This document shows, one piece after another, positions 4,097-18,173 of a stretch of DNA of 18,173 bases. Below the pieces are notes generated by a model. That model was not told the origin of the DNA and did not search any database. It saw nothing but the letters and a program-made list of their open reading frames with translations. Source of the stretch: Asterionellopsis glacialis. Its lineage: Eukaryota > Bacillariophyta > Plagiogrammaphyceae > Rhaphoneidales > Asterionellopsidaceae. The stretch covers positions 1-18,173 of the forward strand of contig WKLE02003550.1 in assembly GCA_014885115.2 (NCBI GenBank), given 5' to 3'. A program made the translations under genes and the position numbers. The number at the start of each line of letters is the position of its first letter. Within the stretch, counting starts at the first letter, position 1.

Positions 4097-4346
4097 GTTT
4101 GCTTGTTATTTACAGTGAAGCTTGAGTGACAATTGCTTTGTCACGTGACCCCGATGAATCTCAAATTTTCAAGTTCTCATGTTGTCAGTTGAAATACCGA
4201 TGTGTGCGTTAATTTGTTAATGATGTATTCATTCTTAATACTCTATTTTGTGCGAAATATTGTTTTGCTTAAACAATCGATTTCTCGAAATATTTCACAC
4301 ATGTTTGAAACTTATGAGATGATCTGTTCGCTAACAACGATGGTCC
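4097..4346. other. AT-rich spacer between facing terminal repeats, with a hairpin
   Basis: No gene is seen. The interval separates two terminal repeats that face each other, so 3999-4427 forms one large imperfect palindrome with this spacer as its loop. Within it 4249-4261 and 4289-4301 can pair (TGTGCGAAATATT against its near-complement, one mismatch), with an overlapping inner stem ATTGTTT/AAACAAT at 4259-4277. Confidence 0.5.
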
Positions 4347-4427
4347 TTGGTTACGTTGGAAATACAAACAAGACTTAGCTTGAACAAGGATCCTCAAGTT
4401 GATGTTGATTGTAAAGTACTTCGTTTT
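4347..4427 (+). repeat. Left terminal inverted repeat of copy 1
   Basis: Reverse complement matches 12398-12478 at 80 of 81 positions; the one difference is CG here against CA at the right end. Outer edge begins TTGGTTACGTTGG, inner edge ends AAGTACTTCGTTTT. Only 76 nt separate it from the gag ATG, so transcription probably starts in or next to the repeat. Confidence 0.85.
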
Positions 4428-4503
4428 ATCAAACTTGTCATTTTCTTTTGGGCTACGGGTGGTGTAAACAGGAGTTTAAGTTCGATTTGTGCAAAAGCTA
4501 CGT

Positions 4504-6477
4504 ATGACGACGTCAAGTGCCTCACCCTACGGAGGCAGTGATGCCTCGCGAAGTTCGGTAAAGACAGAGTCTGACTCGTCTTTACCCTCTAAGACCGTCC
4601 CCATGTCCCTTGGGGACTTAGTGGTACAGTTTTGGAAGGCCGTGCATTGTGGTGATTCAGTTGGTGCCAAGGACGTGATGGATCAGGTGTTGGAACTGAA
4701 GACACCTGACGTAGAAGAAACAGTTGATGGTAAGTCGGACTTGTCTCCATCGGGTATCGATTATTGGATATCCAATGTAGAGGTGTCGTTAGTGTTCGTA
4801 AATCGAGAGAAAGTATGTTTTGGAAAGGTTGGACAGGGTGGTGGACACCAAGGGCGGTTGTGTGTAAAGCCAAATGAGGGTGTAAACCGGTGTAAAATTT
4901 CATTGCACAAGTCGGTGAGGGTAGCCGATGCAGAGACGCTAACATCGGGTTTTTACGTGGGGGCGCCGAGTAACGTCACGGCAGTCATGATGCATATGAT
5001 GATTCCGGAAGCACGTTTTCTTAACACGAAGGTAGTTGCCAATTGGATGGGAGATCCCTCCTTTGAAATGATCAAGGCCACCGCCGGCGTGTGGAAAAGG
5101 GTCATCAAACAAACAGGGCCGAACATTGGTCGGCTGATCAACATCGAAGAATTAAACGTAGATACCTCTTTGGGTGGTGATCAAGATGATGAAACCATAC
5201 ACGCTGCCGATATGAGTCACGATGACTTGGTGCAAGCTCAGCTTAGGTTGGAAGAACGCATTAATGACCTAGAGGCTTTGGGTGGAATCTATCGTGGAAT
5301 GATAGCTAGTCACGAGGCAAAGCTGAACCGTGAAATTACGTCGTTACGAAACGAGATACGCCAAGAAAAATCCCGAGGTAGTTTGTACGGTACGGAGGAT
5401 TTAAACACAATCAAACAAGAGTTGCGAACAGAAGTGTTAACAGAACTTTCTGGTGCAGTGGTATCGTTGAAGAACGAAATCAATACGGCAACCAGTGGAG
5501 CGTCAGGACAGTCTCTCAACAAGATGATCTTCGGGAGTGGAGGCTTTGCTGAATCTATTGAGAAGAAGATGGATCGACTTACGCAACAGGTTGCCGGTCA
5601 AGGAGTAGAAGTGGGTGATTGTCGTTTTAATTGTTTGCTGGATGTAGAAACTTGGATGGCTAGTCACTTGAAGAATGTAGAGGCGTACGGAGTGTTCTGG
5701 GATGTAGTGGTAGCTCTATGTTCAGTGCCCAAAGCCAATGTGGAATTCGATTCGGTAATGGCAAATAAGAAGGCAGTGGAAGCTGGGAAGTTTTCGTCGG
5801 TATGGAACGCCAGGCATTTTTCGTCTTTTCAAACAACGTTCCCACCGGTATTATTTACATCAGCAAGTAGTTCTGGCTTATCGGCCATTCAGTACAGGAA
5901 CAAGTGGACCTCCAAAGGTCAGTCGGGCGTCAAGCATGATATCTTAGAAGGAGTCAAGCGGGCTAGCGAAGCGCTGAAGAAGGAGATTAGAAATCTGGTG
6001 GCCCCTGGATCTGAAGCCGCGCTCCTTGCCAAAGCGATGCACTCAACGTCTGTATCGTTTGTCCGGGCGTGGATATCAGAAATGGACTCCTTATATGAGG
6101 ACTTTGTAAATGGGGGAATGAAAGGGCAAGCAGCCTGGGATTTATGTTTGTTACTCACCAAAGCAATGTTTGCCAAACTGAGAGATGCCCGAGCTATCGC
6201 ATTGGATTCGACTACGCCATCGGTTATGCTTTGGGCATCGTTACAAGCGCATAAAGTCATGGAAGAATTCATCCAACATGACTTTCGAAACCACCCCCAC
6301 TTTGCAGCCGTGATCATGCAGACGTATATTTTAGGGAATTCGGGAATGACAAGCGCTGATGTGGCCGAACCAGTGACCAAGTTAGAAGGGGACCTAATTG
6401 ACTATAAAAAGATGGCAAATAAAAAGTTTAGTGACGTCTTTTCCCGATTGAAAGCTGTGGAAGAGAAACAATCTTAA
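4504..6477 (+). CDS. gag: Gag-like protein of copy 1
   Basis: Intact frame of 657 residues from the first ATG (4504) to TAA at 6475-6477. It is the first ORF after the left terminal repeat, where YR elements carry gag. The N-terminal ~45 residues are Ser/Thr-rich and likely disordered. Residues ~240-326 form a long charged helical region (RLEERINDLEAL, then REITSLRNEIRQEKS, then KQELRTEVLTEL) that should be a coiled coil for assembly. The C-terminal half is mostly helical, with DFRNHPHFAAVIMQ near 595 and a charged end. I see no CCHC zinc knuckle. The role as nucleocapsid protein is inferred from position. The frame continues in phase past the TAA into pol, and a perfect stem follows the stop, so a minor Gag-Pol readthrough product is plausible. 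Confidence 0.75.
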   Translation: MTTSSASPYGGSDASRSSVKTESDSSLPSKTVPMSLGDLVVQFWKAVHCGDSVGAKDVMDQVLELKTPDVEETVDGKSDLSPSGIDYWISNVEVSLVFVNREKVCFGKVGQGGGHQGRLCVKPNEGVNRCKISLHKSVRVADAETLTSGFYVGAPSNVTAVMMHMMIPEARFLNTKVVANWMGDPSFEMIKATAGVWKRVIKQTGPNIGRLINIEELNVDTSLGGDQDDETIHAADMSHDDLVQAQLRLEERINDLEALGGIYRGMIASHEAKLNREITSLRNEIRQEKSRGSLYGTEDLNTIKQELRTEVLTELSGAVVSLKNEINTATSGASGQSLNKMIFGSGGFAESIEKKMDRLTQQVAGQGVEVGDCRFNCLLDVETWMASHLKNVEAYGVFWDVVVALCSVPKANVEFDSVMANKKAVEAGKFSSVWNARHFSSFQTTFPPVLFTSASSSGLSAIQYRNKWTSKGQSGVKHDILEGVKRASEALKKEIRNLVAPGSEAALLAKAMHSTSVSFVRAWISEMDSLYEDFVNGGMKGQAAWDLCLLLTKAMFAKLRDARAIALDSTTPSVMLWASLQAHKVMEEFIQHDFRNHPHFAAVIMQTYILGNSGMTSADVAEPVTKLEGDLIDYKKMANKKFSDVFSRLKAVEEKQS

Positions 6478-6550
6478 AGGTGGCCATCCGGACGAGATAG
6501 GGAAGGGAAACAGACAGAAAATGGTGAGCTAGGAAATCGGCGTCCGGATG
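6475..6550 (+). promoter_or_regulatory. Gag stop codon with downstream stem: candidate readthrough signal
   Basis: TAA (6475-6477) in the context CAATCT-TAA-AGGTGG is followed after 7 nt by CATCCGGACG (6485-6494), which pairs perfectly with CGTCCGGATG (6541-6550), leaving a 46-nt loop. The frame is open and without ATG until 6616. Copy 2 keeps the TAA, the flanking bases and the open frame, but its stem has two mismatches. Confidence 0.5.
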
Positions 6551-7101
6551 AGGGAGAGTCCCAATGGGAAGAGAAGAATTATGGCACGAAGGTTGAGTTG
6601 GACCAGGATGTATGCATGAGTGCAATAAACAGGCTTGGAGCAGGAAGAGAAGCAACGTATGTTACAATGGCAGGAACTAAAGGGAGAGAAAATATTAGGA
6701 TGGTCGATGTTGGCGTAGAGGGCTTACCGCTGGCCGATGCAGCTGGGCGATGGGGGGGCAGGGTAGTCGGTGTGGTGACCCTTAACAAAAAGGGAAGAGT
6801 GCTGGCCAAGACTTGGTTTCCTGGGAGTGTAGCAGGAAGTGGGTGTGAACTAAGCCCTCAGCTACAACATAGCGACATTGATGTAGTTGTAGGTACAGTT
6901 TCGACCAGTGATAAATTGGTAAAGTTCTGGGGTGAAAGCCATAGGTTGCTCCCAAAATTTGGAATGGTGTTGGTCCCACAAGACAGCTTCTCACGCCATG
7001 TTCTGGAAGAAAGGAAAGGGAACTTTAGAGTGATCAGACGTGATACGATTGCGCACTCCCAGGTAGGAGGAGAGTCACGACTAGTGTGTGGAAGGTTCTA
7101 G
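6478..7101 (+). CDS. pol: Pol N-terminal part of copy 1 (cut off by a 2-nt insertion)
   Basis: In phase with gag across the TAA. The first 40 codons after the stop contain no ATG. The first in-frame ATG (6616) is ACA in copy 2; the first ATG shared by both copies is 6667 (ACAATGG, a good initiation context). The shared block reads like a Rossmann fold: IRMVDVGVEGLPLADAAG followed by GGRVVGVV, then DIDVVVGT, then LLPKFGMVLVPQDSFSR. This recalls the layout of a class I methyltransferase without obvious catalytic motif; function unknown. The frame runs off into a stop at 7101 because copy 1 has GGAGGAGAGTCAC where copy 2 has GGAGGAGTCAC. In copy 2 this part and the RT part are one frame, so the two pieces are one gene. 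Confidence 0.65.
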   Translation, partial: RWPSGRDREGKQTENGELGNRRPDEGESQWEEKNYGTKVELDQDVCMSAINRLGAGREATYVTMAGTKGRENIRMVDVGVEGLPLADAAGRWGGRVVGVVTLNKKGRVLAKTWFPGSVAGSGCELSPQLQHSDIDVVVGTVSTSDKLVKFWGESHRLLPKFGMVLVPQDSFSRHVLEERKGNFRVIRRDTIAHSQVGGESRLVCGRF

Positions 7102-10100
7102 TGGTTGCACGAATGGGCGTTGACACTAATAATACAGGTGGTTTAAAGTTCACAGAAACAGTACCTTATCAGCGATCATTACGATCGGTACTCAAACCTA
7201 CCAATGGTCTAGTTCTTAAGGGAAAAAGGCTGCAGAAGGTGAAAGGAGTGGAAGGGAAAACCCAGAATGATGGCATGAGGGGTGAGACCAAGCAAGGACG
7301 GGATAGCATAGTAGGGTATGTGGACCAAGAACCGGTCTACAATGACAAAGGCCTCATACAGTTAAGTGTGGCCAACTGGGTAAATACAAAGTGTGTTTAC
7401 CATCCAGGACTCAAGGTCATAAGACAGATGATAGTCGAAGAGTGTCTCGCAGCATGGGATTATTCCGATGATGTGGTCAGGGAAGGGCAGATTGACAAAT
7501 CAAGTAAAAGAAGTTTGGAACAATGGATACGAGCACCACCAGGAAAAGTTGTGAGGTTTGCAATTCATACACTGGGTGAATGGTTGCTAGGAAAACCTAT
7601 GAATAAGGGGGGGGGTGAAGAAAACAGGGACGAAGGGTCCAGGGAACAAGGTGGGGGAGACCCCAAAGAGGAGGAGACAGTGGTGGATAGTGCAGGGACG
7701 GACCCTGACTATTCAGTAGCTACTAAGGCGGATAACGCTAAAGTAGACGTGTCACTGTGGGATAAGGAGGTAGGAATTATTCTAGGTTTAGGTAAAATTA
7801 CAACATCTTTAACCAAGGCATGTGCTTTGTTGCGTAAAAGAATGTTTTCATGGTGGAGGAAAAACTTGACTTTGGAATGTGTGAAGTATTTGCGCAAGGA
7901 AGGATGGCGAAAGAGGGATGTGGAAGCAGCACAAGAGTGTGTGAGTCGGGCTGCGAAGTCAACGTTTATGGAATGGGTGGACGGATCTAGACTATTCTTC
8001 TGGCGATGGCCTCGCAAATTTCGAGATGACGCCAGGGATGGTATGAAACTCTGGTATAACTCTCCCACCCAGCGTTGGTTTGGAACATCCACTCCAGCAG
8101 ATTCACTAGAGGCTGAACTAAAGATGCGCGACAAAGAGGATAAATTGATTAGCCGGCAATATTTAGAGCGAGGAAAAGGTGTTTATGTAGAGTCTGTAGT
8201 GCAGTGTTTTGCCATCAGCAAAGGTAGTGATGATATCAGGGTAGTATGGGATGCTCGCAAAAATGGCGTGAATGAACACCTTTGGGCACCACATTTCTTT
8301 CTACCAGGATCGCAAAATTTAGAGCACCTTCTCACCTGCAAGTCCTATCAAGGAGATATGGACGTGGGCGAAATGTTCTTAAACTTTATGCTTCATTTCA
8401 GCAATCGCAAACACTTTGGAGTGCAATATTTCACCATTGATAAACAGGGACGGGAGAAACAAGAATTAACCAGATTTTGTCGGCTCATGTTTGGTAGCAA
8501 GTTGTCACCCTATGCAGCAGTTCAGATGATGTATAGAGCCATGGAGGTGATGATGGGAGATCCCACAGATCAAACAAACATTTTTGGATGGGAGGAGGTG
8601 GCCCTAAACTTACCTGGCGATCCCCAGTATAAACCCTGGAGACCCAAAATCGCAAAATTAATGTCCACCAGAGAGATTGCGCCAGATGCCATATTTTATG
8701 TAGATGACGGGCGCGCAGTGGGATCTTCATGGGATTCATGTAATCGAGCACTACACCGAATGTCATCAACATTGAACAGTTTAGGTATGCAAGATGCAGC
8801 TGGAAAACGGAGACTTCCATCAAAAACTCCAGGGGCTTGGGCCGGGTTAGTGACGGACACCTCAGGCAAGACACCCACTGCTGGATTATCAGAAGAGAAG
8901 TGGGGACGATTGAAAGGAGACATTAAATGGCTAGATGAGCAGTTGAAGAATTCTAAAGGATTAGAGATGAAAAAGGCTTTGTCAGTACAAGGTTTCCTAG
9001 TGCATGCTGCCCGCGTGTATCCTAATTTGAAACCTTATCTAAAGGGACTGCATCTCACCTTGGAATCTTGGAGACCAGACAGAGACAAGCACGGATGGAA
9101 GCGCAATGACTGGATTGATTACTTTGAAGCAGGGGATCCGGAAGATTCCGAAGTGATAACTCAGTTAGCCGCAAGGACTCAAAAGCAGGCGCCAGCATAT
9201 GTACAACCAGTACCTCTGCTACAATGGTCAGTGAGGGTACTAAAGGCTTTAACTCAGCAGTCCTCTCCGGTGCAACGGCCTATTCGAGCAAGTCAGGGTA
9301 CAAGCGTGGTGTATAGATTTGGAGATGCCTCAGGAGAAGGGTATGGTTCATCGTTTACTAGGAAAGGCCACAAACTCTCAGTGAGACACGGACTTTGGTG
9401 TACAAAAATTTCTGAAGAGTCATCAAATTATAGAGAATTTAGAAACTTGTTAGATTCCATCAAGATTGAAGCCCAGCAGAACAAACTCCATGGGTATGAA
9501 GTATGGATGTTTACAGACAACTGGGTAGCAGAATCTTGTTATGTGAAGGGATCTTGTCATTCACGAATTTTAAATGAGATGGTAGCTGAGTTGCATGTCC
9601 TAGCCATGAATCATGGTTTCTCCTTACATATCATACATGTGGCAGGAACACGAATGATAGCCCAAGGAACTGACCCTTTGTCGCAAGGCAAATTCGAAGC
9701 AGGAGTAATGGGAGGAGACAGTATGTTATCGCACATTCCCTTAAACTTAGGGGCCATGGATAGGTCGCTAGTTTTAGGGGAATGGATTCGGACATGGGCA
9801 GACACTTGTCCTGCTCACCCTGAAACCCCAAATGATTGGTTTAGTAATGGCCACAAGCCTGGAGTGCATCTTTGGGCACCCCCACCAGTCATTGGCCTCA
9901 AAGTCTTCAAACAAGTGAGCTTGGCTAGGCACAAACGCCCTTATGACACTACACACATCATTGTAATCCCACAATTGATGTACTACTGTTGGCGGAAACG
10001 GTTACTGAAAGAAGCAGACCTCATTTTGGAATTGCCGGCAGGTTTTCAATTTTGGACAACGAACAACCATGAACCTCTTATCCTTGCTGTTTGCTGCCCT

Positions 10101-10253
10101 GTATGTTCTTCTGCACCTTTTAGGTTACAAGAGAAAAGGGAAATGGTGGAACTACACAAATCATTGCAACAACTGCGGAAAGAGAGTGAATTGGAGCTGC
10201 GGCGTGGTTTGCGCAAATTTTGGAAAGTCACAAGAAGGCTTGTCACCATGTGA
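7086..10253 (+). CDS. pol: Reverse transcriptase-RNase H (Pol main part) of copy 1
   Basis: Continuous frame of 1055 codons beginning at a GTG, really the continuation of the upstream pol piece in another phase. After a linker (to ~residue 225) comes CALLRKRMFSWWRKN and GSRLFFWRWP, then the RT. Fingers read KGSDDIRVVWDARKNGVNEHLWAPHFFLP; motif A is GDMDVGEMFLNF (D424, D426), a form typical of this algal YR family. Motif C is FYVDDGRAVG (Y538-D541). RNase H follows with D747 (FGDASG), E784 (YREF), D811 (MFTDNW) and D863 (GTDPL), so all four acidic residues are present. A C-terminal extension (HLWAPPPVIG, ARHKRPYDTTHIIVIPQL, NNHEPLILAVCCP) is a family feature of unknown role. It makes cDNA from the element RNA. 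The last 185 nt overlap the YR ORF. No nonsense codon interrupts it. Confidence 0.88.
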   Translation: MWKVLVVARMGVDTNNTGGLKFTETVPYQRSLRSVLKPTNGLVLKGKRLQKVKGVEGKTQNDGMRGETKQGRDSIVGYVDQEPVYNDKGLIQLSVANWVNTKCVYHPGLKVIRQMIVEECLAAWDYSDDVVREGQIDKSSKRSLEQWIRAPPGKVVRFAIHTLGEWLLGKPMNKGGGEENRDEGSREQGGGDPKEEETVVDSAGTDPDYSVATKADNAKVDVSLWDKEVGIILGLGKITTSLTKACALLRKRMFSWWRKNLTLECVKYLRKEGWRKRDVEAAQECVSRAAKSTFMEWVDGSRLFFWRWPRKFRDDARDGMKLWYNSPTQRWFGTSTPADSLEAELKMRDKEDKLISRQYLERGKGVYVESVVQCFAISKGSDDIRVVWDARKNGVNEHLWAPHFFLPGSQNLEHLLTCKSYQGDMDVGEMFLNFMLHFSNRKHFGVQYFTIDKQGREKQELTRFCRLMFGSKLSPYAAVQMMYRAMEVMMGDPTDQTNIFGWEEVALNLPGDPQYKPWRPKIAKLMSTREIAPDAIFYVDDGRAVGSSWDSCNRALHRMSSTLNSLGMQDAAGKRRLPSKTPGAWAGLVTDTSGKTPTAGLSEEKWGRLKGDIKWLDEQLKNSKGLEMKKALSVQGFLVHAARVYPNLKPYLKGLHLTLESWRPDRDKHGWKRNDWIDYFEAGDPEDSEVITQLAARTQKQAPAYVQPVPLLQWSVRVLKALTQQSSPVQRPIRASQGTSVVYRFGDASGEGYGSSFTRKGHKLSVRHGLWCTKISEESSNYREFRNLLDSIKIEAQQNKLHGYEVWMFTDNWVAESCYVKGSCHSRILNEMVAELHVLAMNHGFSLHIIHVAGTRMIAQGTDPLSQGKFEAGVMGGDSMLSHIPLNLGAMDRSLVLGEWIRTWADTCPAHPETPNDWFSNGHKPGVHLWAPPPVIGLKVFKQVSLARHKRPYDTTHIIVIPQLMYYCWRKRLLKEADLILELPAGFQFWTTNNHEPLILAVCCPVCSSAPFRLQEKREMVELHKSLQQLRKESELELRRGLRKFWKVTRRLVTM

Positions 10254-11634
10254 GTTTATATCATGTGGACCATGTTGTACTCCACATAGGTGGGATAAGT
10301 TCAAAATCCAAGACCCTGCAGATGTTATTGAAGGCAAATTGAGTTACAATGAAGAGCAAAAACGATTCAGAGAAGCGAGACCAGGAGATCATACCATGCG
10401 TATGTTCCAGTGTGATAAATGCCAGTTTCAGAATTGTTATTTTCAAAATCCTAATAATAAAGTGGCATCGGATGAACTAGCCATGTGCTGCATTCGACGG
10501 GCAAACTTGGATGCCTTCTGGAGTCAGGAGCCTGCAACAGTACAAAATCATGTCAATGAGGTGAGATTTCAAATAAAATATGGGGACCAACTCAACCTGG
10601 ACATGTTTGAAGAATTGGGACCATGGGAACTAGAAGACCGTATGGGAATGAAACAGGCCATTGAAATATTACTCCGATCCCGAGAACCCAGGCGAAATGG
10701 TTTCACGGTAAAATTCTCAACGACTTGAAAGGCCAGGGGAGTTTTTATATGAGTAGCGCACGCATCACCAACCTCCAAACGTAATCAAACATTTGCAAAG
10801 GACCGCAACAAATTAACGATTACTCATGCTACCACATATGGAGAATGGTTCTCGTCGTTCATGGAAGGAGTATTGGCACGAATGGGGCAGATCACCCGCC
10901 AAGACCAAGCAATTTCTATTGAAGAGATGTTAGCATTTCAACAAGGATTTGAAAATACATGGAACCACGAAGGCTATGACATAGACGTGAACGTTCTCGA
11001 GGCGGCAGTATTCGCTTTGACGACCTATGTGGGTTCGTTACAGGGTTACGAAACGGTGAAGATTCACTTGCCAACGCTGATTGAAAAACTCAAGGAAGCA
11101 TCGACCAGTGGAGGTCTGGATTCACAGGTACCCTATTATGGCATACCACTGATTGGACGTTTCAAGACTGAGGCCGGAGAAAGAGCATTTGCAATCCCCA
11201 TGGCAAGCGAGACTGTGTCAGGATTAAAACCGTTGTTATGGATGATCAGACTTATCAACAAGTTGAAAATGGAAGGTGAATATGACCAGTCATGGATGCT
11301 GGCCAAACAGGCAGGTTCATCTCAGCAGGCGGCTATGAATAAATATGAAAAGGAAATATTCGGTCGTCTAAGACAAATCCAAAGGGAACGCCTGGACTTG
11401 ATCCCCAAATCAGTAGACGTTGATCAAGATTATGGATTAGCAAGAATGTTTAGGCGAGGAGCAACTACTCGAGCACAAATCGCGGGGGTAAGCAGTGATG
11501 ACATCAACGCGCAAAACCAATGGAGAGCAGAAATGAACTCTAGAGGAAAAGGGTATACTGGAACAATGAAAGACTTATATACTGATTTTCTGCAATCGGC
11601 AGAAATGTTATTAAGATTTTCACGAGCATTATGA
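10069..11634 (+). pseudogene. Tyrosine recombinase of copy 1, broken by two TGA codons
   Basis: Two open pieces (10069-10728 and 10753-11634, the latter with an ATG at 10861) lie in the same phase and are separated only by TGA at 10726 and 10750. Copy 2 has CGG and AGG at those codons, so this is one gene. The N-terminus carries paired cysteines (HCNNCGKRVNWSC, CEFISCGPC, CDKCQFQNC) suggesting zinc binding, then RRANLDAFWSQEPATV, a family signature before the core-binding domain. The catalytic part has VGSLQGYETVKI (box I, where family members have R; here Q, codon 11041-11043), PLIGRFK, MFRRGATT, NQWR and the nucleophile in DLYTDF (Tyr, 11578-11580). A YR would join a circular cDNA to the genome. 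The ATG at 10069 has A at -3. The product is truncated and probably inactive. Confidence 0.78.
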
Positions 11635-12397
11635 AGGAAAAGGACAACTACTTGCAGCAATTAGAACACAAATGATCATGAGGATAAAGTTCATTCAATA
11701 ATTGACAAAGCAAGAAAGGTTTGTTGAGAGGAGCTGTGATGGAGGTAGTACCAGAGAGGATTACTGGGCGTAATGCAATTCAAGGACACTGACAAAGGTT
11801 TCAGAGGAGGTTGATTGGCATCTGGTACAAGTTCGAAAAGATTCGAGTAGGATCTGAAAAGTGGATGGTTTGAATGAGGTATCCAGGATAACCTGACTTT
11901 AAATTCGAACAAACGAATGTTAAATACAATCAAACCTGGAACACTTATCACCTACGGATAAGAAGTATCCAAATTACTTACAACAAGGCCCAAGGCTGGG
12001 GTTCCACCACCAATAGTTTAGAATTAACAATGCATATCTAATAATGTCTTATGACCAAGGATTTGACCTTCTTCAATTCAATACCAAAGCTGGAATGCCG
12101 CAAGTTCCCGCCTTGTGTCCAATAACTAAGCTGGGACCTAGGCGAAGTGAAAGCAAGGTAGCAGATGAAGAAGAAGGACAAAACCAAGGACAGACAGACA
12201 TTAATATGTTTTGAGAGAGATGCATGACTGAAGACGAATCGCTAAAATGTTTCAAACAGGAAGAACATCAACAGATGTTCGATGACAAACAGTTGGAAAC
12301 AAATTTCAGAAGCAAGCTGATTAATGGAAAAGAGTTCAACTTAAGACGGAAGAAATCTCAGAAAACAGATGTTTAGACAAAAAAAAATTTCAATGTA
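11635..12397 (+). other. 3' region of copy 1
   Basis: No conserved domain is found. A small frame 12044-12214 (56 codons, MSYDQGFDLLQF start) is followed in the same phase, after a TGA, by an open stretch from ATG 12224 to a TAG at 12374-12376. Part of this lies in the 207-bp perfect inverted repeat. Only the last part, from about 12009, has a counterpart in copy 2; 11635-12008 is missing there. It is most likely 3' untranslated or regulatory sequence. Confidence 0.45.
12115..12321 (+). repeat. 207-bp perfect inverted repeat, left arm
   Basis: Every base from GTGTCCAATAAC to AGCAAGCTGAT matches the reverse complement of 12654-12860. It belongs to the 3' region of copy 1. The 332-bp spacer between the arms contains the right terminal repeat of copy 1. 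Confidence 0.9.
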
Positions 12398-12478
12398 AAA
12401 ACGAAGTACTTTACAATCAACATCAACTTGAGGATCCTTGTTCAAGCTAAGTCTTGTTTGTATTTCCAACATAACCAA
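12398..12478 (+). repeat. Right terminal inverted repeat of copy 1
   Basis: Partner of 4347-4427, one mismatch (CA here against CG). It starts AAAACGAAGTACTTTAC and ends CATAACCAA. The following ATTTGTGAGCACTCTT (12479-12494) also follows the lone repeat at 3999-4080 with one change, so the right end may be longer than the left. Confidence 0.85.
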
Positions 12479-12653
12479 ATTTGTGAGCACTCTTATGAAA
12501 GCACTCACTGTTTGTTGTTTGGATAGAGTGGTAGATCACTACCATATGCCACGAGCTTGTCACTGATTTGCTTCATTTATTTTCGACTCCGATAATTTTT
12601 CAAAATATTTCATTTCTTTTGGATCAATTATTTTCATTCGGAATATATGATTT
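12479..12653. other. Spacer between copy 1 and the shared 3' part of copy 2
   Basis: AT-rich, no gene. Near the start GTGAG...CTCAC can form a small hairpin (about 12484-12510). On the minus strand an open frame runs from the copy 2 arm through this stretch to 12560, but it resembles nothing I know. This is where the end of copy 2 should lie; I find no terminal repeat belonging to copy 2. Confidence 0.4.
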
Positions 12654-12860
12654 ATCAGCTTGCTTCTGAAATTTGTTTCCAACTGTTTGTCATCGAACAT
12701 CTGTTGATGTTCTTCCTGTTTGAAACATTTTAGCGATTCGTCTTCAGTCATGCATCTCTCTCAAAACATATTAATGTCTGTCTGTCCTTGGTTTTGTCCT
12801 TCTTCTTCATCTGCTACCTTGCTTTCACTTCGCCTAGGTCCCAGCTTAGTTATTGGACAC
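12654..12860 (-). repeat. 207-bp perfect inverted repeat, right arm
   Basis: Exact reverse complement of 12115-12321. It lies in the 3' region of copy 2. Beyond both ends of the arm the two copies differ (AC against TT next to GTGTCC; TAAATC against TTAATG at the other side). Confidence 0.9.
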
Positions 12861-13080
12861 GTGGCGGGAACAGCTGTTCTTTTTCTTGTGGTCTTGATGA
12901 ACAGCTGTTCTTCTGTTTCTTCCAAACGTTTTAGCGATCCCGATCTTCAGTTGTGCACCTTAGCAATTCTCTTGTCTTTTTATATGTCTGTCTGCTTTGC
13001 TCCCTAATTTGGGTGTCGTTTGACCGACTTGCATTTCGTCTAGGTCCCATCTTAGTTTGGCACACGTGGCGGGAACTTGC
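12654..13080 (-). repeat. Two diverged tandem units in the 3' region of copy 2
   Basis: On the minus strand two units of about 210 bp each begin with TTCCCGCCACGTGT, followed by similar order: a GGGACCTAG(A/G)CGAA block, GACAGACAT, and TGAAGA(T/C)CG...ATCGCTAAAA. Units start near 13078 and 12871. Copy 1 has one unit, so one was lost there or gained here. Inside lie two copies of the 12-bp palindrome GAACAGCTGTTC (12868-12879 and 12899-12910). Confidence 0.6.
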
Positions 13081-13934: not shown

Positions 13935-16900
13935 GGTTGTTCATTGTCCAAAAGTGAAAACCCGTTGGCAATTCCAGAATGAGGTCTGCTTCTTTCAGTA
14001 ACCGTTTCCTCCAGCGGTAGTACATCAATCTTGGAATTACAATGATGTGTGTAGTGTGATAAGGTCGTTTGTGTCTAGCCATGCTCACTTGTTCTAGGAC
14101 TTCGAGACCAATGACCAGTGGGGGTGCCCAGAGATGCACTCCTGGCTTGTGACCATTACTAAACCAATCATTTGGGGTTTCAGGGTGAGCAGGACAAGTA
14201 TCTGCCCATGTCCGAATCCATTCCCCTAAAGTTGGCGACCTGTCCATGGCCCCTAAGTTTAAGGGAATGTGCAATAACATACTGTCTCCTCCCATTACTC
14301 CCACTTCAAATTCGCCTCAGGACAAAGGGTCAGTTCCTTGGGCTATCATTCGTGTTCCAGCCACATGTACGATATGTAGGGAGAAACCATGATTCATGGC
14401 TAGGACATGCAACTCAGCTACCATCTCATTTAAAATAAGTGAATGACAAGATCCCTTCACATAACAAGATTCCACTACCCAGTTGTCTGTGAACATCCAA
14501 ACTTCATACCCATGGAGTTTGTTCTGCTGGGCTTAAATCTTGATGGAGTCTAACAGGTTTCTAAATTCTCTATAATTCAATGAATGATTCTTCAGAAATT
14601 TTTGTACACCAAACTCCATGTCTCACTGAGATTTTGTGACCTTTCCTAGTAAATGATGACCCATACCCTTCTCCTGAGGCATCTCCAAATCCATAAACTA
14701 CGATTGTACCCTGACTTGCTCAAATAGGTCGTCGCACCGGAGAGGACTGCTTAGTTAAAGCCTTTAATACCTTCACTGACCATTGCAGCAGAGGTACTGG
14801 TTGTACATATGCTGGCGCCTGTTTCTGAGTCCTTTCGGCTAACTGGGTTATCACTTCAGAGTCTTCCGGATCCCCAGCTTCAAAGTAATCCGTCCAGTCA
14901 TTGCGCGTCCATCCATGCTCGTCTCTGTCTGGTCTCCACGATTCCAATGTGAGATGCAGTCCCTTTAGATAAGGTTTCAAATCCGGATACATGCAGGCAG
15001 CATGCACTAGGAACCCTTGTACTGACAAAGCCTTTTTCATTTCTAATCCTTTAGGATTGTTCAACTGCTCCTCTAGCCATTTAATGTCTCCTTTCAATCA
15101 GCCCCATTTCTCTTCTGATAATCCAGCAGTGGGTGTCTTGCCTGAGGTGTCCGTTACTACTCCGGCCCAAGCCCCTGGAGTTTTTGATGGGGGTCTCTGT
15201 TTTTGAGCTGCATCTTGTATACCTAACATGTTCAATGTTGAGGACATTCAATGCAGTGCTTGATTACATGATTCCCATGAAGATCCCACAGCACGCCCAT
15301 CGTCTACATAGAATATGGCATCTGGCGCAATCTCTCCGGCGGATGTTAGTTTAGCTATTTTTGGTCTCCAGGGCTTATATTGTGGATCTCCAGGTAAGTT
15401 TAGGGCCACATCCTTCCATCCAAAAATGTTTGTTGGATCTGTGGCATCTCCCATAATCACCTCCATGGCTCTATACATCATCTGAAGTGCTGCATAGGGT
15501 GACAACTTGCTTCCAAATATGAGCCGACAAAATCTGGTTAATTCTTGTTTCTCTCGTCCCTGTTTATCAACGGTGAAATATCGCACCCCAAAGTGTTTGC
15601 GATCACTGAAATGAAGCATAAAATTTAAAAACCATTTCACCCACATCCATATCTCCATGATAGGACTTGCAGGTGAGTAGGTGCTCTAAATTTTGCAAAC
15701 CTGGTAAAAAGAAATGTGGAGTCCAAAGGTGTTCATTTACACCATTTTTGCGTGCATCCCATACTACCCGGATATCATCACTACCTTTGCTGACAGCAAA
15801 ACGCGGCACTACAGACTCTACATAAACACCTTTTCCCTGCTCTAAATATCTTCAACCAATCAATTTATCTTCTTTGTCGCGCATCTTTTGTTCAGCCTCT
15901 AGTGAGTCTGCTGGAGTAGATGTTCCAAACCATTGCTGGGTGGGAGAGTTATACCAGAGTTTCATACCATCCCTGGCGTCATCTCGAAATTTGCAAGGCC
16001 ATCACCAGAAGAATAATCTAGATCCGTCAACCCATTCCATAAATGTTGACTTCGCAGCCCAACTCACACACTCTCGTGCTGCTTCCACATCCCTCTTTCT
16101 CCATCCTGCCTTGCACAGGTACTTCACACATTCCAAGGTCAAGTTTTTCCTCCACCATGAAAACATTCTTTTACGCAACAAAGCACATGCTTTTGTTAAT
16201 GCTGTTGTAATTTTATCTAAACCTAGAATAATTCCTACCTCCCTATCCCACAATGACACGTCTACTTTGGCGTCATCCGCCTTAGTAGCTACTGAATAAT
16301 CAGGGTCCGTCCCTGCACTATCCAAAACTGTCTCCTCCTCTTTGGGCTCTACCCCACCTTGTTCCCTGGACCCTTTGTCCCCATTTTCTTCACTGCTCCC
16401 TTTATTCATAGGTTTTCCTTGCAACCATTCACCCAGTGTACGCATTGCAAACCTTACAACTTTTCCTGGTGGTGCTCGTATCCATCGTTCCAAACTCCTT
16501 TTACTTGATTTGTCAATCTGCCCTTCTCTGACCACATCATTGGAATAATCCCATGCTGCAAGACACTCTTTGACTGTCATCTGTCTTATGACCTTGAGTC
16601 CTGGATGATAAACACACTTTGTATTTACCCAATTGGCCACACTTAACTGTATGAGGCCTTCATCATCGTAGACTGGTTCTTGGTCCACATACCCTACTAC
16701 GCCATTCCGTCCTTGCTTGGACTCACCCCTCATTCCATTGTTCTGGGTTTGCCCTTCCACTCCTTTCACCTTCTGCAGCCTCCGTCCCTTGAGGACTGAC
16801 CCATTGGTAGGTTTGAGTACTGATCGTAGTGATCGCCAATAAGGTACTGTTTCTGTGAACTTCAGATCACCTGAGTTACTAATGTCAACATCCACTTGTG

Positions 16901-17537
16901 CGGCTACTAGAACTTTCCACACACTAGTAGTGACTCCTCCTACTTGGGTGTGCGTGATCATATCATGTCTTATCACCCTGTACTTCCCTTTCCTTTCTTC
17001 CAAAACACGGCGTGAGAAGCTGTCTTGTGGGACCAACACCATTACAATTTTAGGGAGCAACCTATGGCTTTCAGCCCAGAACTTTACCAATTTATTGGTT
17101 GTCGAGGCTGTCCCTACAACTACATCAATGTTGTTATGATGTAGGCGAGTGCTTAATTCACTCCCACTTCCAGCTATACTCCCAGGAAACCAATTCTCTG
17201 CCAGCACTCTTCCCTTTTTATTAGGGGTCACCACTCCGACTACCCTGGCTCCCCATTGCCCAGCTGCATCGGCCAGGGGTAACCCCTCTACTCCAACATC
17301 GACCAACCTAATATTTTCTCTGCCTCTAGTTCCTGCCATTGTCACATACGTTGCCTCTCTTCCTGCTCCAAGTCTATTTATTGCACTTGTGCATACATCC
17401 TGGTCCAACTGAACCCTTATGCCATAGCCCTTCTCTTTCCATTGAGACTCTCCATCATCCCGACGCCGATTTCCTAGCCCAACATTTTCCTTATGCTCCT
17501 GATGTTTACCTCCCCTATCTTGTCCGGATGGCCACCT
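13750..17537 (-). pseudogene. pol: Pol (RT-RNase H) pseudogene of copy 2
   Basis: Collinear with copy 1 pol. The first piece (17537 down to 16002) is one frame spanning the N-terminal Rossmann-like domain and the linker, proving that the two pol pieces of copy 1 are one gene. Stops then interrupt it at 16002, 15852, 15248, 15098, 14720, 14533 and 14317, and there is a 1-nt insertion near 15631 and a 4-nt TCAT duplication near 14580. Motif A (GDMDVGE), the YVDD motif C and the TDNW and TDPL residues of RNase H are still readable. The last piece (14304-13750) keeps the C-terminal extension and the overlap with YR. Four of the seven stops are CGA in copy 1. Confidence 0.85.
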
Positions 17538-17999
17538 TTACGATTGTTTCTCCTCCACAGCTTTCAGTAGGGAAAAGACGTCACTAAACTTTTTATTTGC
17601 CATCTTTTTATAGTTGACTAAGTCCCCTTCTAACTTGGTTACCAGTTCGGCCAAGTCAGCGCTTGTCATTCCCGAATTTCCTAAAATATACGTCTGCACA
17701 ATCACGGCCGCAAAGTGAGGGTGGTTTCAAAAATCATGTTGGATGAATTCTTCCATGACTTTATGCACTTGTAAAGATGCCCAAAGCATAACCGATGGCG
17801 TAGTTGAGTCCAACACAATAGCCCGGGCATCTCTCAGTTTGGCAAACATCGCTTTGGTGAGTAAAAAACATAAATCCCAGGCTGCTTGCCCTTTCATTCC
17901 CCCATTTACAAAATCCTCATATAGTGAGTCCATTTCTGATATCCACGCCCGAACAAACGATACAGACGTTGAGTGCATTGCTTTGGCAAGGAGCGCGGC
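17538..17999 (-). pseudogene. gag: Gag C-terminal remnant of copy 2
   Basis: Matches copy 1 gag from LLAKAMHSTSVSF to the end (EEKQS, then TAA at 17538-17540). A premature TGA at 17727-17729 replaces CGA of copy 1 (DFRNHPH). Homology stops abruptly at about 17999, inside GGCAAGGAGCGCGGC, where the chromosome-end sequence starts. The N-terminal three quarters are gone. Confidence 0.8.
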
Positions 18000-18061
18000 G
18001 TGGCTTCTAACACGTAGTGTGGTACGTACTGCGTATAGCCCATGCTACTGAGCTGAGTATG
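18000..18061. other. Unique junction between truncated copy 2 and the telomere
   Basis: About 60 bases that match neither gag of copy 1 nor the telomere repeat. No gene. It may be a scrap of subtelomeric sequence or filler DNA from the end-healing event. Confidence 0.5.
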
Positions 18062-18173
18062 TTAGGGTTAGGTTAGGGTTAGGTTAGGGTTAGGTTAGGG
18101 TTAGGTTAGGGTTAGGTTAGGGTTAGGGTTAGGGTTAGGTTAGGGTTAGGGTTAGGGTTAGGGTTAGGGTTAG
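18062..18173 (+). repeat. Telomere: mixed TTAGGG/TTAGG repeats
   Basis: Five units of the 11-mer TTAGGGTTAGG, then TTAGGG three times, one TTAGG, five TTAGGG and a partial TTAG at the window end. The G-rich strand reads 5'->3' outward, as at a right chromosome end. Confidence 0.97.

Follow-up and report, generated by a model that had tools for sequence, protein, structure and literature searches.

Probable stop-codon readthrough linking gag to pol in putatively DIRS-like retrotransposons of Asterionellopsis glacialis

Readthrough of a stop codon is a known route to Gag-Pol, familiar from long terminal repeat (LTR) elements, and we found no report of it for DIRS-like elements in the open-access literature searched. 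How DIRS-like elements express Pol is hardly addressed in the passages of PMC3266345, PMC3783388 and PMC6681497 consulted, which describe overlapping frames, and the portions of PMC8547959, PMC3537659 and PMC8613185 consulted contain nothing on readthrough. Here we describe an apparently DIRS-like retrotransposon of Asterionellopsis glacialis in which gag and pol share a frame across a stop codon. The stretch analysed (the window) is contig WKLE02003550.1, 18,173 nt long (C1095 in a genome of 40.3 Mb in 1503 contigs), and it holds two copies of the element lying tail-to-tail, copy 1 on the + strand and copy 2 on the - strand. Judging from the sequences of these copies and their relatives, we consider it probable, at about three chances in four, that the Gag-Pol of this retrotransposon group is made by stop-codon readthrough.

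The fission yeast retrotransposons Tj1, Tcry1 and Tosmo1-3 likewise have an in-frame stop between Gag and Pol, and passages of PMC10085805 describe GAA-TGA-CT(A/G) as conserved across them and TGA followed by C or CT as prone to readthrough; the same TGA-CT is found in one of the families described below (family B). Their Pol carries protease, reverse transcriptase (RT) and integrase, whereas here RT stands behind a methyltransferase-like fold and the identity of the stop varies by lineage. In Tca2 of Candida albicans, as covered in parts of PMC2194720, gag and pol also occupy the same frame across a stop with a purine-rich spacer, comparable to the first bases in our relatives C493 and C410; a pseudoknot has been proposed for Tca2, whereas we find no 3' structure shared among our junctions. 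The gag-pol of murine leukaemia virus, treated in the same source, combines UAG, a purine-rich spacer and a common frame, and is approached most closely by the TAG-GA branch of our elements (C1164, C410, C493), but it requires a pseudoknot and no conserved structure is seen here.

DIRS-type retrotransposons offer a further parallel. According to sections of PMC5890265, PMC3266345 and PMC3783388, DIRS1-like elements have a Gag open reading frame (ORF), a Pol that combines RT and RNase H with a methyltransferase domain, inverted terminal repeats and a third ORF, a layout that the present element appears to share, and SymbioDIRS-Dnmt3 of dinoflagellates carries a cytosine methyltransferase domain within Pol. 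The same sections describe conserved key residues and A-B-A-B repeats in SymbioDIRS, whereas in the C5-methyltransferase fold here each of the two catalytic motifs, PC and ENV, was found in 0 of 68 rows as aligned, within the columns searched; they describe DIRS1-like elements with an adenine methyltransferase, and the tyrosine recombinase is unconfirmed here.

One frame across the gag stop

In copy 1, gag (4504..6477, +) comprises 657 codons from the ATG at 4504, within a frame open over 4480-6477, and ends in a TAA (6475..6477, +) followed by AGG, the candidate readthrough site. The gag frame continues without a stop through a linker of 74 codons (6478..6699, +) up to the conserved pol domain, where the start of pol, predicted from the copy 2 model to adopt a methyltransferase-like fold, extends until a frame break (6700..7101, +). 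In copy 2, a gag fragment truncated toward telomeric repeats (17541..18029, -) ends in a TAA (17538..17540, -), and directly after it comes an open frame of 511 codons (16002..17537, -) holding a linker of 77 codons and the methyltransferase-like fold. A preliminary description of this DNA had the gag frame open past the TAA into pol in both copies, and it is (6478-7101 in copy 1; 17537-16002, -, in copy 2). Its three-codon difference in linker length also stands: where it gave 40 and 43 codons, the count to the shared KVELDQ/RVQLDQ motif is 37 and 40. In the gag frame both linkers contain zero stops, and the other two frames contain 3 and 6 in copy 1 and 4 and 7 in copy 2.

DNA and protein searches of the same genome recovered copy 3 (C1131; 92% identical to copy 1 in DNA), C803 and more distant copies, and a stop with an in-frame, mostly open continuation recurs in relatives as distant as 23-37% protein identity. 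A stop is present at 17 of 17 readable gag ends (6 TAA, 3 TAG, 8 TGA), a count that holds partly by construction because gag ends were recognised partly through the stop that follows them (gag-like residues before a stop). The ORF list of 15 contigs contains none that is continuous from gag into pol. The identity of the stop differs from lineage to lineage. In family A the stops are TAA in copies 1, 2 and 3, C803 and C53, and TAG in C1164, C410 and C493; in family B they are TGA (C422, C1132, C336, C794, C813), as in C325, the copy nearest to that family; and in family C they are TAA in C243 and TGA in C341 and C374. Pol is recognisable behind 16 of the 17 gag ends and lies in the gag frame in 15 of these 16, where "same frame" is local to the junction, C1164 and C410 having frameshifts within gag. 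Of the 15 same-frame junctions, 11 have a linker with no further stop before the conserved domain. Copies left out of these counts are C783 (too decayed), C1326 (gag tail not found) and C1394, C570, C885 and C238 (matches stop short); querying the genome with family B added C238, a small match to the distal end of pol, and no further junction.

The bases that follow the stop also track lineage. They read AGG, AGG, AGG, AGA and AAT in the five copies of the TAA branch of family A, GAG, GAT and GAG in its TAG branch (C1164, C410, C493), CTC, CTC, CTC, CTT and ATT in family B, CCT in C325, and CCT, CCT and CCC in family C, giving the contexts TAA-A, TAG-GA, TGA-CT and TAA/TGA-CC. TGA-CT occurs in 4 of the 5 family B copies (C422, C1132, C336, C794), and is found neither in C813 (ATT) nor in the other families. 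Because the layout recurs in distant relatives using all three stop codons, ribosomes probably read through the stop occasionally, and this recurrence lends weight to the readthrough between Gag and Pol that the preliminary description had proposed. A reassigned stop code in the host is not favoured: an inner stop occurs in 0 of 19 HSP70 matches and in 2 of 10 Cpn60/TCP1 matches, and the two inner TAA may be introns. In the match tables most inner stops of decayed copies (C1131, C803, C1164, C1394, C493 and others) are TGA, and a C-to-T bias might lie behind this.

The openness of the longer linkers is seldom matched by chance. In dinucleotide shuffles a linker stays open with a probability of 0.003 for C803, 0.0033 for C493 (102 open codons), 0.008 for copy 1, 0.010 for copy 2, 0.015 for copy 3, 0.035 for C243 and 0.040 for C341; the short open linkers of C422, C813, C336 and C325 are barely informative (0.24-0.59). 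Constraint on codons, measured as the ratio of nonsynonymous to synonymous substitution rates (dN/dS), extends past the stop in family C, where the 80 gag codons up to the stop give 0.07-0.08 and the first 58 codons beyond it, compared between C243 and C341, differ at 14 synonymous and 8 nonsynonymous positions (dN/dS 0.15, one pair). The stop codon itself differs between these two copies (TAA in C243, TGA in C341).

Proteins of metagenomes show the same division of Gag from Pol. A search with Pol was taken to the best 120 of 322 matches, and a second one, admitting fused proteins, to the best 120 of 450. The nearest Pol among the matches listed, P0002, is 90% identical and forms a long open Pol of 1247 aa. 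Compared by eye with the copy 3 linker, it aligns gap-free from codon 8 past the stop, and its initial Met sits at an Arg of copy 3, as if the gene caller had chosen the first ATG. A search with Gag gave three matches, P0122, P0123 and P0124. P0122 is a separate Gag of 657 aa, 93% identical to that of copy 1, which starts MTTSS and ends EEKQS at the identical residue, and P0123 and P0124 stop at the place corresponding to the copy 1 gag end. The longest contig listed is 8245 nt for P0002 and also for P0122, and the two proteins probably lie on one contig. Among the best 120 of 450 Pol matches no protein exceeds 1540 aa, in a search that admitted up to about 2695 aa. Of the 234 Pol proteins that these two listings contain, 201 begin with M, 17 with V and 16 with L. 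Pattern searches for DNA of relatives outside the genome, twice in viral contigs and once in genome contigs, returned 1, 9 and 78 matches, none of them confirmed.

Readthrough weighed against its rivals

Under readthrough, gag and pol would form a single reading frame interrupted by one stop codon at the gag end. Most ribosomes would terminate there and yield Gag, and a minority would decode the stop as an amino acid and proceed through the linker into Pol, meeting in turn the degenerate C5-methyltransferase fold, RT and RNase H, with a Gag-Pol fusion at low ratio as the outcome. We infer that the leakiness would stem from local context (TGA-CT, TAA/TGA-CC, TAG-GA, TAA-A), perhaps together with factors of the host or the element, and not from the 10-bp stem discussed below.

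Besides the way in which gag ends were recognised, several observations weigh against readthrough. The linkers of C1164, C410, C794 and C374 each contain one further stop, although the frame is still the same, and that of C1132 is frameshifted; relatives with linker stops or frameshifts had been named beforehand as evidence against the proposal, and they do occur in part, in each case in a decayed copy. C53 has a gag end without pol. In that copy, whose gag stop is at 4194 (-), the frame closes 26 codons further on next to another long open frame, which suggests replacement or loss of pol. The linker codons of family A are nearly unconstrained (dN/dS 0.64-0.92, three pairs), with 0.08-0.16 in the gag before them and 0.18-0.32 in the pol after them (three pairs each), the pairs with C803 being saturated. 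The family A linker looks like a spacer that would be required to stay open while its residues are free to change, and residues 4-67 of the copy 2 structure model have a predicted local distance difference test score (pLDDT) below 50, which we took as disorder. In family B the first 15-16 codons past the stop likewise show no constraint (dN/dS 0.47 to 3.5 where defined). Five copies, both of those in the window among them, have the context TAA-A, which the portions of PMC10085805 consulted do not name as leaky, and the window's own branch is therefore the least explained. The local sequence of Tca2 gave no readthrough in yeast despite its similar layout, its bypass being left unexplained in the parts of PMC2194720 consulted. 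Finally, no 3' structure is shared across the junctions by stem count or fold energies, pseudoknots as such not having been modelled.

The rival that survives best, though we think it unlikely, is that pol is started on its own past the gag stop, by internal initiation or reinitiation at an ATG or near-cognate codon, with the stop acting as a plain terminator. Some shared start codons speak for it and against readthrough: copies 1 and 3 share the ATG at 6616, which at codon 47 is the earliest in-frame one of copy 1; position 6667 (codon 64 in copy 1, codon 67 in copy 2) is an ATG in both copies of the window; and the three copies of family C share one at codon 63-65, just before the domain. 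Among distant Pol proteins, P0139, P0153 and P0154 share the aligned start MGAT(E/G)GVEPSEE, and P0126-P0128 share similar beginnings; because the Met is aligned, the branch of P0139, P0153 and P0154 may start Pol at its own ATG, and Pol may be made in different ways in further branches. However, the copies as a whole have no in-frame ATG in common, nor do those of family A by themselves. The first one falls at codons 47, 67 and 13 in copies 1, 2 and 3, and at codon 8 in C803, 14 in C1164, 17 in C410, 139 in C493, 5 in C422, 84 in C336, 6 in C813, 91 in C794, 67 in C325, 63 in C243, 65 in C341 and 63 in C374, a span of codons 5-139 across the 15 copies measured. C493 has 138 codons past the stop without an ATG, and in C493, C336, C794 and C325 none occurs between the stop and the conserved domain. 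The codons upstream of the ATG shared in family C are constrained, and an independent start would need no gag frame, yet nearly all junctions keep it. As a group-wide start of pol both window ATGs are rejected: that at 6616 is ACA in copy 2, as the preliminary description had it, and that at 6667, which it had put forward as the rival start, fails because copy 3 has ACA there and C803 has GTG.

Readthrough could also be driven by a stem in the fashion of murine leukaemia virus, which we regard as quite improbable. The stem, CATCCGGACG (6485..6494, +) paired with CGTCCGGATG (6541..6550, +), is exact over 10 bp in copy 1, starts 7 nt past the TAA and has two mismatches in copy 2, all as first described. 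When the 90 nt past the copy 1 stop are shuffled by dinucleotides, 3 of 3000 shuffles contain a Watson-Crick stem of at least 10 bp, and among 412 overlapping 90-nt segments of copy 1 such a stem is found only in the 2 that cover this one. It did not hold up as a stimulator, being perfect elsewhere only in copy 3 (C1131), with which it may be shared by descent because the two copies are 92% identical. In the other 13 junctions of this count, pairing reaches 4 to 6 Watson-Crick pairs in a row, and 6 to 9 when G-U pairs count as well; compensatory pairs were not seen. Fold z scores over the 90 nt past the stop are -1.97 for copy 1, -1.42 for copy 3, -1.93 for C803 and -1.67 for C813, with the other 13 at -1.34 to +1.09; from 6 nt before to 120 nt after the stop they are -1.22 for copy 1 and -2.19 for C803 and range up to +1.41. 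The copy 1 junction is no outlier within its own element, where 2 of 34 spaced 90-nt segments, both off the junction, have z scores at least as low (-4.46 and -2.03). The lowest of these lies at 9701-9790 (+), within pol. From these comparisons we conclude that RNA structure past the stop is probably not conserved.

Alternative splicing that removes the stop and fuses gag to pol appears slightly less probable again. Candidate introns do exist and tell against readthrough: in-phase GT...AG pairs no more than 210 nt from the stop and common to the members compared number 8 in family A (4 copies), 2 in family B (4) and 6 in family C (3), and the best donor-like site, GTRAAG at -60 in family C, would with an AG at +27 excise 90 nt in all three copies. 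The GTs shared in families A and B are not donor-like (in A, GTGACC/GTAACC, GTTTAG, GTGACG and GTCTTT/GTATTC), and family C behaves as coding on both sides of its stop by the dN/dS values given above, a comparison in which the 90 nt are not isolated. It is highly improbable that the layout is a relic, with dead copies whose common stop goes back to an old lesion in a formerly continuous gag-pol frame: most copies do carry other stops and frameshifts, but several deep lineages have a stop at the equivalent position, in all three identities, and an apparently intact metagenome relative also separates Gag and Pol there.

Element class and surroundings

The remainder of the copy 1 pol (7044..10253, +) lies in a different frame, the break falling near 7072 at the site of a length difference from copy 3. 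Behind the linker, the N-terminus of Pol is predicted by the copy 2 structure model to adopt a degenerate C5 cytosine methyltransferase fold. RT is recognised through RVT_1 at E values of 0.041 in copy 1, 2.8e-6 in P0004 and 0.0035 in P0033, all under Pfam's own cut-off, and the best family among PDB sequences is the RT of murine leukaemia virus (E 0.06). RNase H is read from motifs only, with no profile match in the Pfam scans made. A cysteine-rich ORF (10009..10728, +) overlaps the end of pol and is perhaps the start of a third gene, and the third ORF follows at 10753..11634 (+).

The third ORF may be tyrosine-recombinase-like by the pattern R...RRG.T...RWR...Y, which profile searches did not confirm. 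Set against tyrosine recombinase models (Pfam, PHROGs, NCBIfam, PDB sequences), this ORF and its relatives gave only weak unrelated matches, its structure model has a pLDDT of 38, and the genome gave no Phage_integrase match, so that the label of tyrosine recombinase (YR) retrotransposon in the preliminary description is unconfirmed. Copy 1 has putatively terminal inverted repeats (left, 4347..4450, +; right, 12378..12478, -) that are 91% identical and place the element ends approximately, and a block from the left end of C1131 is repeated in direct and inverted orientation at 12108-12654 of the window. RT in Pol, the inverted repeats and the overlapping third ORF fit an element that may be called DIRS-like, with a candidate recombinase that lacks profile support.

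Between the two copies lies a 222-bp inverted repeat (99%) within 12104-12871. Telomere repeats of the TTAGGG/TTAGG type end the contig from about 18061, and the copy 2 gag is truncated there (17541-18173). At the other end, a TOD1/MUCI70 glycosyltransferase-like domain (Pfam E 4.3e-9) is encoded by a fragment of a host gene at positions 1-2277.

Implications for DIRS-like elements

An apparently unusual feature of these elements is a stop that persists through changes of its identity and context. It is possible, though we hold the idea only tentatively and at well below even odds, that the clade keeps readthrough while freely swapping three stop codons and their 3' contexts, TAA-A included, without a conserved RNA structure, the leak being set by something beyond the known local signals. 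If that were true, the leak might come from an element protein acting on termination or from an unusually permissive host. A degenerate methyltransferase fold directly behind a putatively leaky stop provides a second lead. The natural variants, with all three stop codons among them, form a panel for asking what makes a stop leaky, and readthrough at a stop that several deep lineages have retained would offer a testable answer to how DIRS-like elements make Pol.

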